A stretch of 41,215 nt of DNA from Terriglobia bacterium (lineage in GTDB: Bacteria > Acidobacteriota > Terriglobia > Bryobacterales > Bryobacteraceae). The stretch is from contig JAIQEX010000055.1 of assembly GCA_020073615.1 (NCBI GenBank), positions 1 through 41,215 of the forward strand, in the 5' to 3' direction. The notes under the pieces are model-generated. The model worked only from the letters and a program-made list of their open reading frames with translations, was not told the DNA's origin and did not search any database. Positions 38,909 through 41,010 of this stretch are shown piece after piece (the stretch's first letter is position 1; each line of letters starts with the position of its first letter). The position numbers were made by a program, and so were the translations under genes.

Positions 38909-38958
38909 ACCCGGAGGGGCCTCATTTGGCTGAGCTTTGCACGCCTTGTGGTGCGGAG

Positions 38959-38986
38959 CTTCAGCCCCCACGGCGTCGGGCTGAAG
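38959..38986. repeat. REP-like palindrome CTTCAGCCC/GGGCTGAAG
   Basis: Perfect 9-bp inverted repeat (38959-38967 and 38978-38986) with a 10-nt loop, 50 bp after the AHSA1 gene stop. From memory, similar TTCAGCCC palindromes recur between genes in Solibacter-like genomes. It could also serve as a transcription stop, although no T-run follows. Confidence 0.6.
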
Positions 38987-39157
38987 ACCCCAGATGACGT
39001 ATGCAAGATTGATGAAACACCTCACCGGCATACAAGGCAGGGTGAACCCGGCGAAACCAATCACAAGTCCACCACCCAAAATTCCCCCCATCCCCTCAAC
39101 CACTTACCGCCCGCCCCCGCTTCCCCGCCTCCGCTCGCCAGTTATCCTCGAATTGAA

Positions 39158-39174
39158 ACAGACCCCCAGTCTGT
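39158..39174 (+). promoter_or_regulatory. Hairpin in the leader of the STGPR-family gene
   Basis: ACAGAC (39158-39163) and GTCTGT (39169-39174) form a 6-bp stem with a 5-nt loop, 20 bp before the ATG at 39195. It could mask or shape the ribosome site. The surrounding 280 bp (38909-39194) hold no other gene; the region is C-rich. Confidence 0.3.
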
Positions 39175-39194
39175 CTACCCAAATTTCCAAACTC

Positions 39195-39902
39195 ATGTCT
39201 ACTCCCCTGCAAATCTCCGCGAATCGCCGTAATTCGCAAAAATCCACCGGTCCGCGCTCCGTCGAGGGCAAGGCCGCCGTCCGCTTCAATGCCCTCAAAA
39301 CCGGCATCGACGCCCAGTCCCACATCATCCCCGGCGAAGACCCCGACGCCCTCGCCGCCCTCAACGCCGAGTACCATCAGCGCTTCCAGCCCGCCAATCC
39401 CGACGAGCGCGCCCTCGTCGACCTCCTCGTCTCCGCCGAGTGGCAGCTCCGCCGCTTCCGCACCGTCGAGGCCCACCTCTGGACCGCCAAAATCCAGGAC
39501 GCCTACAAAACCGATGAGGACGCCCCCCTCGGCAACGTCTTCGCCAGCTCCAGCAATACCTTCGTCCGCCTGCAGCGCCTCATCGATTCCGCCCAGCGCT
39601 CCTATCTCCGCACCCTCAAGGAGCTGCGCCACGCTCAGGAGCTGTCCGCCCAGGCCCCGCCCGACCCCGATCCCCCCGCCCTCTCCCCGCTTCCCTCCGT
39701 CCTCCTCCCCGCGCCCGATCCCCTGCCAAATCAATCGCCGCGCCCCCAAATTGGCTTTGTTCCTGACACTCACCCCGATCCCGCCGCCGGTCCCGTTCCC
39801 CTCTCCGCCGCCCCCTCCGTAACCCCGCCGCCCGCGCCGCTCGCCAACGCGCCGCTCTTCTTTGACTTGCTCTCCGCCCCTTCTATGCTGAATTCGCGGT
39901 AG
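39195..39902 (+). CDS. STGPR-motif family protein (Acidobacteria-expanded)
   Basis: A 235-residue soluble protein. The N-terminal block ISANRRNSQKSTGPRSVEGK and AAVRFNALKTGIDAQSHII define a family I associate with many paralogs in Solibacter-like genomes. Next is a helical region (ERALVDLLVSAEWQLRRFR, SYLRTLKELRHAQEL), then a Pro-rich tail of about 65 residues. Function unknown. I used the ATG at 39195; the in-frame upstream extension is Pro-rich and unlike the family. The coding strand is unusually C-rich, so other frames are full of Pro and Ser. Confidence 0.75.
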   Translation: MSTPLQISANRRNSQKSTGPRSVEGKAAVRFNALKTGIDAQSHIIPGEDPDALAALNAEYHQRFQPANPDERALVDLLVSAEWQLRRFRTVEAHLWTAKIQDAYKTDEDAPLGNVFASSSNTFVRLQRLIDSAQRSYLRTLKELRHAQELSAQAPPDPDPPALSPLPSVLLPAPDPLPNQSPRPQIGFVPDTHPDPAAGPVPLSAAPSVTPPPAPLANAPLFFDLLSAPSMLNSR

Positions 39903-39939
39903 ACAGATAGTTCGGATTCCGATATAACAGAATACGACT

Positions 39940-41010
39940 ATGTCCGCGAAAGGGAGAAGGCTGACACTGGCTGTTTTGATCTTTGGGGCAGGCCTCTTGG
40001 CGATCGCCCTGGTCTCCGGCGCCCTTTACGAGCAGGTACAGCGCGCGCGAGACCGGGAGGCCCTCCCGCAAGTGGGCCGCTCCGTGGATATCGGCGGCCG
40101 GATGCTCAACATCTATTGCTCCGGCGTGGGCCAGCCCGCCATCATCCTGGAAACCGGCGCCACCTGGACTTTCTACAACACGCCCAAAGCGATGTTCGAA
40201 AACGGCGTCCAGCGGCCCGGCTACAGTTGGGTACGGATTCAGCGCGAGTTGGCAAAATTCACCACGGCGTGCTGGTACGATCGGGCTGGCTCCGGCTGGA
40301 GCGACGCCGGCCCCTATCCGCGCGACAGTGCCTCCCACGCCCGCGATTTGCATGCCCTCCTGGCCGCGGCTGGCGTTCCCCCGCCTTATGTGCTGGTGGC
40401 GGAATCGTCGGCGGCCCTGGATGCCCGCCTGTACACGCGGTTCTATCCGGACAGCGTGGCCGGCCTGGTGATGGTCGACGGCGTCCATCCGGATTTCTTT
40501 ACAAGAGCCGGGCCTGGCCGCGGGAGAATGGCGCGCTTTCCGGAGTTTGTAGGCCACTCACAGGATGTTGCGGCGCAGGCATTCAACCTGTTCGGGCTCT
40601 ACCGGTTGGGTTCGGCCAATCGTCCGGCGCCCCCACTCCCCGCGGGAATGACCGCCTCGGAATGGAACACCATCTGGCGCCTGGCCCAGGCCCCCAAGGC
40701 GCGGGCCGCGCTCATACAAGACATCGCCTCCTGGGTACAGAGCACAACCCAGGCGCGGGCAGCGGGCAGTCTCGGCGACCGTCCACTCATTGTGGTCAGT
40801 TCCGAAAACTCCGCCGTGGAATCCGCATCCCGCAGCTTATGGATGGAGCTACAGACCGATCTGGCCCGATTGTCCACGCGGGGAAAACAGATGGTGCTCC
40901 CCGAGAGCAGGGGCGACCTCATCTACCAGGCGCCCGAAGCGATCGTCGACGCCGTTCGCCAGGTTCTCGATGACGTCCGGCATGAGCCGGGAAGCCGCCG
41001 CATCCGCTAG
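39940..41010 (+). CDS. Alpha/beta hydrolase fold protein with altered active site
   Basis: A 356-residue protein with one N-terminal membrane or signal-anchor helix (LTLAVLIFGAGLLAIALVSG). Fold markers are INGG-like IGGRMLNIYCSG, ILETGATWTFYN (oxyanion region), WYDRAGSGWSD, and VLVAESSAALDARLYTRFYP at the nucleophile elbow. That elbow reads A-E-S156-S-A instead of G-x-S-x-G. Where relatives have a catalytic His after S-G (SGH-type, before the last helix), this protein reads ESRGDLIYQAPEAIV, with no His. The usual hydrolase mechanism is therefore doubtful. It may be a binding protein or use another chemistry. Confidence 0.82.
   Translation: MSAKGRRLTLAVLIFGAGLLAIALVSGALYEQVQRARDREALPQVGRSVDIGGRMLNIYCSGVGQPAIILETGATWTFYNTPKAMFENGVQRPGYSWVRIQRELAKFTTACWYDRAGSGWSDAGPYPRDSASHARDLHALLAAAGVPPPYVLVAESSAALDARLYTRFYPDSVAGLVMVDGVHPDFFTRAGPGRGRMARFPEFVGHSQDVAAQAFNLFGLYRLGSANRPAPPLPAGMTASEWNTIWRLAQAPKARAALIQDIASWVQSTTQARAAGSLGDRPLIVVSSENSAVESASRSLWMELQTDLARLSTRGKQMVLPESRGDLIYQAPEAIVDAVRQVLDDVRHEPGSRRIR

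Follow-up and report, generated by a model that had tools for sequence, protein, structure and literature searches.

The gene at positions 39195-39902 of a contig from a Terriglobia bacterium of the Bryobacteraceae raises the question of whether it belongs to a family that moves within genomes. The window, by which we mean the whole stretch of 41,215 nucleotides that was analysed (contig JAIQEX010000055.1), had previously been described in a sequence-only reading, which assigned this gene to an Acidobacteria-expanded, many-copy family and saw hints of mobility in a nearby palindrome, a leader hairpin and a transposase. The reading preferred here, to which we give a probability of roughly 0.45, is that the gene represents an undescribed repetitive family, termed STGPR after its motif, in which a leader and the open reading frame (ORF) are copied together within lineages and the encoded protein would act on the leader.

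The gene and its product

The window ORF lies on the plus strand and encodes 235 amino acids, with the N-terminus MSTPLQISANRRNSQKSTGPRSVEGKAAVRFNALKTGIDAQ. The same frame is open farther upstream, giving 302 codons from 38994; the alignment of relatives starts at the equivalent of 39195, not at 38994. Translation confirms that both N-terminal blocks pointed out earlier are real. In a family alignment of 28 diverse members the NRRNSQKSTGPR block (39222-39257, plus strand) contains the invariant residues S17 and P20, and the EGKAAVRFNALKTG block (39264-39305, plus strand) contains the invariant residues G25, N32 and G37, with R87 as a further invariant position. Members from other genera share 26-47% identity with the window protein.

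The window protein comes near the cut-off of no Pfam family and is claimed by no NCBIfam or PHROG family, in keeping with its earlier description as a member of a family of unknown function. Over the 28 diverse members, no Pfam, NCBIfam or PHROG family recurs consistently and no HTH match was found, and a transposase or recombinase domain is recognisable neither in the window protein nor consistently among these members. The likeness to PHROG terminase small subunits (phrog_9231, phrog_1889) consists of weak matches only: phrog_9231 matches 4 of the 28 members with a best E of 0.0089, which was judged to be chance, and ten members scanned singly gave no terminase match better than E 0.1. The best NCBIfam match, to a surface-protein model in 2 of the 28, was attributed to low complexity. 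Structure prediction, which the sequence-only reading had proposed as a check, did yield a model (mean pLDDT 77.3, pTM 0.57), all-helical and of low confidence in the proline-rich tail, but the fold searches returned long-helix coincidences that are uninformative.

The likeliest role for the STGPR product is that of a small, helical protein that binds nucleic acid, perhaps DNA, and would act on the leader shared by the copies. We infer both nucleic-acid binding and the leader as its putative target from the association of leader and protein, which persists from genus to genus, and from the recurrence of the leader alone.

Copy number and taxonomic distribution

Three copies are present in the genome to which the window belongs (G000), namely that of the window, a copy on contig C217 with one stop (86% protein identity over residues 1-218) and a copy on C195 that is cut by the contig end; a fourth match (E 0.07) was weak and left uncounted. 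All three lie in unrelated flanks. The C217 copy (L002) carries, at about 1550-1572, an insertion with the palindrome GGGTACCC inside the STGPR motif, and a similar stretch occurs in L168.

A search with the window protein at E 0.01 matched 32 of the 61 genomes covered; in the order and class outside the family 3 of 24 genomes match, one of them weakly. The same query finds at least 60 matches in G030, where 60 of 78 candidates were scored. A profile built from the 28 rows matches 202 of the 237 Bryobacteraceae genomes (at most 13 candidates scored per genome) and 2 of 148 in a phylum sample outside the family. Three related genomes, G231 among them, have 63, 48 and 35 matches; the 63 of G231 were merged by hand into 50 places by joining neighbouring matches. 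G008, a genome of 2 contigs, holds 18 copies, 11 of which belong to subfamily A. The STGPR family is expanded in one bacterial family, not in the Acidobacteria at large, so the earlier label was too broad; the placing of a many-copy family among Solibacter relatives agrees with these counts. Many-copy is apt for the family as a whole, given the numbers in G231 and G030, and not for the present genome. Carriage by plasmids or phages was considered and set aside: the N-terminal part of a relative matches 4 plasmid records and no phage record.

The repeated unit

The window and C217 copies are 88.6% identical over 773 blastn columns (window 39058-39815). Their similarity starts at 39058, 137 bp before the ATG, and delimits a non-coding leader (39058-39194, plus strand) that is repeated with the gene. 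This leader holds a two-part motif, TCAC ... CAACCACTTA (39061-39106, plus strand), recognised by pattern match and cross-genus comparison, and a -10-like box, TATCCT (39143-39148, plus strand), seen by eye. At the corresponding place in other copies, TAnCnT-like boxes are also visible by eye. The leader, roughly 110-190 nt ahead of the start codon, consists of TCAC, about 31 nt, CAAnnACTT or a variant, and then the -10-like box.

In G008, 11 copies of about 83-94% DNA identity are found in unrelated flanks. Their similarity begins some 195-220 bp before the match start, near TCAC, in nine of the 11 and is mostly lost at or near the stop codon; the exceptions are L076, masked at its left edge, and L072, whose leader has diverged, and L079 was left out of this alignment. 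The leader is part of the unit in G030, G231, G238 and G235 as well. The unit of G030 and genus g84 has its start 30-60 bp or so ahead of TCAC; among the G231 and G238 copies, certain pairs have up to about 620 bp in common on the left side. The left end is sharp in G000 and most G008 pairs and variable in G030, G231 and G238, and the right end is loose. Neither a target duplication nor a terminal inverted repeat was seen in the copies compared, nor an empty site that is clean on both sides. The repeated unit is the leader plus the ORF, more than the ORF alone. The comparison of flanks suggested in the sequence-only reading brought out a leader repeated with the gene in dispersed units; the window's hairpin and palindrome do not appear to be common to the copies.

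TCAC stands at the expected place in 19 of 20 copies in G231, 12 of 12 in G238, 8 of 8 in G235, 18 of 20 in G030 and 9 of 11 in subfamily A of G008, the last figure excluding a second TCACA nearer the start. Across genera, CAAnnACTT occurs upstream in 11 of 29 rows compared with 3 of 661 control windows, TCAC together with CAAnnACTT in 7 of 29 compared with 3 of 661, and a looser form of the two-part motif in 11 of 29 compared with 11 of 661; the motif was first noticed in some of these 29 rows, two of which (L047 and L065) are one place, and copies with less than 250 bp upstream were dropped. Plain TCACA, counted in one copy per genome, is found in 11 of 25 where 6.1 are expected.

A structured RNA in the leader was considered and rejected, RNAalifold giving only -2.9 on 40 aligned leaders. 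A CCGGC..GCCGG hairpin followed by T is present in 37 of 40 leaders of one genus, in none of 20 in G030 and in none of 11 in G008. Searches of the window and nine further loci for known RNA families returned two lysine riboswitches, both outside the unit.

Several other sequences were noted near the units. The same sequence, IS256-like by eye from its translation, abuts or lies near the left side of the G008 units L066, L075 and L076, the gap in L076 being masked. Many copies of one genus (L119-L158) have a hairpin and a boxA-like TGCTCTTTGAcAA about 650-800 bp past the STGP codon, also seen by eye. Downstream, L147 and L131 contain tandem repeats (339 and 411 bp), and in G231 the loci L124, L129, L132 and L136 are repeated units of about 2.3-2.8 kb with a second STGPR-like frame upstream of the main one.

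Copying of the unit and the window junction

In the preferred reading, the unit of leader and ORF would have spread within the individual lineages through copying that as a rule preserves the leader end while the opposite end varies, with transposition, rather than repeated duplication, as the putative mode. Recombination between the dispersed copies would then rearrange chromosomes, and the putative leader-binding protein could serve in autoregulation and possibly in mobilisation in trans.

On one side of the window copy is a hairpin that follows an AHSA1/SRPBCC gene, and on the other an alpha/beta-hydrolase gene (39940-41007). The palindrome to the left of the unit (38928-38966) and the short leader hairpin (ACAGAC-CCCCA-GTCTGT, 39158-39174, plus strand, -6.5 kcal/mol) are both present as had been described. 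As hints of mobility they are not supported: the hairpin is missing from the C217 copy, and the palindrome did not recur in the 116 kb of sequence from the same genome that was compared. The supposed transposase is a 97-amino-acid minus-strand frame at the contig edge, for which Pfam gives no match at E 0.01.

Directly past the hydrolase stop, gene order diverges from the sister species G001, which would fit an insertion there. The empty-site comparison with G001 covers the right junction of the window copy. Homology to G001 begins at 39902, within the promoter-like stretch of the next gene (39902-39928, plus strand), whose -35 box is cut by the junction; in G001 an intact -35 box stands upstream of the hydrolase gene. 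The 3' tail of the window ORF is itself a promoter-like TTGACT..TATGCT stretch (39861-39903, plus strand) that precedes a lysine riboswitch on contig C195 and in G001. This stretch makes up about the last 42 bp of the ORF, and in G001 its place is 297 bp downstream from the hydrolase gene. The right end of the window copy contains host DNA, since its tail of about 42 bp is the promoter-like stretch of the C195 locus, and a local segmental duplication explains this at least as well as transposition. G001 was rejected as a clean zero-copy or empty control, since some leader copies there extend to the end of a contig and the assembly may have lost copies.

Such a junction speaks for STGPR as a paralogous family of the ordinary kind, dispersed without transposition through small segmental duplications together with recombination and gene conversion, in which the leader is kept as promoter and regulatory site. 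This account has an appreciable chance of being correct. It is also favoured by the longer flanks common to L069 and L075 (1270 bp) and to L070 and L077 (1197 bp) in G008 and to L149 and L150 (1418 bp), as well as by positions conserved between congeners. Between G231 (20 loci) and G235 (8 loci), L134 and L152 have both flanks in common and L125 and L158 the right flank only. In favour of the preferred reading, some copies are found at synteny breakpoints. In L157 the left flank is that of L138 and the right flank that of L119, as would be expected from recombination between copies. The flanks of L156 match places in G231 that are about 36 kb distant from each other, and the DNA between flank and unit has no match there. 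The 12 loci of G238 have no clearly shared place; only the right flank of L144 weakly matches L155 (65%). As some positions are conserved between congeners, movement is not rampant.

Gene conversion could give the clustering by genome that is seen in a tree of 95 copies from six genomes. This tree, which speaks for lineage-specific amplification, has 8 genome-label changes (minimum 5) against 46 when shuffled; rows of less than 110 amino acids were dropped, its bootstrap is unsettled and several long branches meet. The 20 sampled copies of G030 form one clade, and those of the congeners G231, G238 and G235 interleave. Against duplication as the main process, most G008 pairs lose similarity where the unit ends, whereas intergenic DNA duplicated along with it could, at 85-95% identity, still be recognised. 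Copies are scattered over the whole of the near-complete G008 and G231 chromosomes, and their strand bias (see below) would require a second cause.

The unit is dispersed, it has amplified in a lineage-specific manner, its copies share a leader, and in two genomes they show a strand bias. The earlier interpretation is partly supported, with dispersed units and genome-specific expansions on one side, and some stable positions and the unsupported hints at the window on the other. Likewise, the combination of low copy number and stable position, which the sequence-only reading held to speak against mobility, is found in some measure, as there are few copies in this genome and certain places are retained among congeners.

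The leader without the gene

A search by pattern also located this leader where the gene is absent. In G000, at least four leader copies carry a different, non-coding body, about 310 bp overall: L186 (C116:9310-9670, minus strand), L188 (C252:8226-8561, minus strand), L190 (C207:533-745, plus strand) and L192 (C74:7111-7360, plus strand), with the right end ..AGCGAATTTGAAGAAA. At least 11 stretches in G001 match this non-coding repeat, several of them halves at contig ends; the counts are lower bounds, 40 of 73 and 40 of 67 candidates having been scored. For ten loci, chosen as non-coding bodies, as leaders or as controls, Rfam returned only a tRNA at E up to 1, and the folding of two bodies did not differ significantly from shuffled sequences (z of -0.33 and -1.20). 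The non-coding repeats are not fast-moving, since three of the five places compared between G000 and G001 retain an orthologous left flank.

Half of the leader motif is also found ahead of host genes. By eye, one such part lies upstream of an HU-like ORF with a similar -10-like box (L171, own C200), and another lies before the same cyclic-nucleotide-binding-like ORF in L172 (own C154) and L179 (G001 C98), where it is conserved between the two genomes. In L173 (1836-1930) and L180, again in G000 and G001, a tRNA gene is directly followed by TTTCAATCACTTA, which is like the second half of the motif. These cases favour either a promoter or chance.

Accordingly, the leader could be a promoter or upstream element that is read by a host factor and belongs to several kinds of gene, in which case STGPR and the non-coding repeats would be co-regulated and mobility would be incidental. 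The recurrence of the leader before non-coding bodies at the four places in G000 and in G001 supports this idea, as do the motif parts before host genes and at the 3' flank of the tRNA. It is nevertheless unlikely, though not strongly so: dispersed repeats in several genomes have the leader at their edge, and the host cases may be chance. In 5 of 6 genomes the leader pattern search gave no more matches than its reversed control (18 against 33 in G000), and in G021, with 37 matches against 22, many are one repeated sequence; the search requires TCAC and yields candidates, and its counts prove nothing. Because of the host genes with a motif part and the uneven left edge, we weight the preferred reading lower, and the promoter explanation higher, than we otherwise would; the reading of STGPR as a new mobilising factor (see below) is weighted lower as well.

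Orientation of the copies

All 15 placed copies of the 18 in G008 fall into two opposite-strand arcs, an arrangement matched by 29 of 5000 permutations. In G231, 40 of 50 places fit such arcs (8 of 3000 permutations as good); among the 27 best-scoring places 22 fit, which is marginal (244 of 5000 permutations). The GC skew of the flanks, taken along the sense of the element, is negative for 19 of 20 G231 copies, and this holds for both co-directional (55) and opposed (38) neighbour genes. Outside G231 the negative skew is weaker (9 of 12, 6 of 8, 13 of 20 and 9 of 15).

This orientation relative to GC skew, together with the arcs in G008, would suit a non-autonomous passenger of a single-strand transposition system (HUH, IS200/IS605 or TnpA-REP) acting in trans, with insertion on a lagging-strand template, beside a TCAC-like site and with no target duplication. 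The lack of visible terminal inverted repeats or target duplications and the recurrent tetranucleotide near the left edge also speak for this explanation, and Solibacter usitatus reportedly contains REP-like structures, about 600 in number, along with three class 3 genes (PMC6006769). We consider it rather improbable. Neither the non-coding copies, whose similarity does not resume until 12 nt past the first letter of TCAC, nor the two genera in which the unit starts ahead of TCAC are what a terminal cleavage site would predict. Furthermore, the lagging strand is a presumed one, since the G231 origin of replication was not located: 40 stretches of 20 kb yielded one weak DnaA-box cluster, and dnaA was not seen by eye in the first 9 kb of that stretch. 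Finally, it is very improbable that STGPR is a new mobilising factor, a leader-binding protein of no known recombinase fold that drives the copying of its own gene and, in trans, that of the non-coding repeats with the same leader, which if true would make an autonomous/non-autonomous pair unlike known transposons.

Comparison with known systems

STGPR is a gene repeat, dispersed and very abundant, of one family of soil bacteria; the four family libraries searched contain no model for it. Should it be mobile, it would constitute a bacterial repeat whose coding unit has no known transposase, accompanied by a shorter non-coding partner, and would bear on the growth and rearrangement of large Solibacter-type genomes. 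Literature searches by motif letters and bacterial group found no description of the family. The large genome of Candidatus Solibacter usitatus Ellin6076 has many paralogs, mostly old, of functional groups (PMC3174227); this expansion is comparable to that of STGPR in concerning the same bacterial group and many paralogs in a large genome, and the portion of that text consulted holds no description of the STGPR family.

In behaviour, the nearest analogues are REPIN/RAYT (REP-associated tyrosine transposases and REP doublets) and IS200/IS605 with its non-autonomous derivatives. REPIN/RAYT (PMC3116915) resembles STGPR in combining a dispersed multi-copy unit with shorter non-coding repeats that have sequence in common with it. 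Unlike in REPIN/RAYT, the STGPR coding unit is itself the abundant repeat, the window ORF has no Y1 transposase match, and the non-coding repeats have only the leader in common. IS200/IS605 elements, which insert into the lagging strand (PMC6006769), are similar in that no terminal inverted repeat or target duplication is seen and in the skew-related orientation bias of G231; they differ in that the STGPR ORF is predicted to be all-helical and matches no transposase. STGPR was filed under neither system because it lacks a recognisable transposase. The STGPR unit resembles no known transposon gene, yet it behaves like a repeat element.
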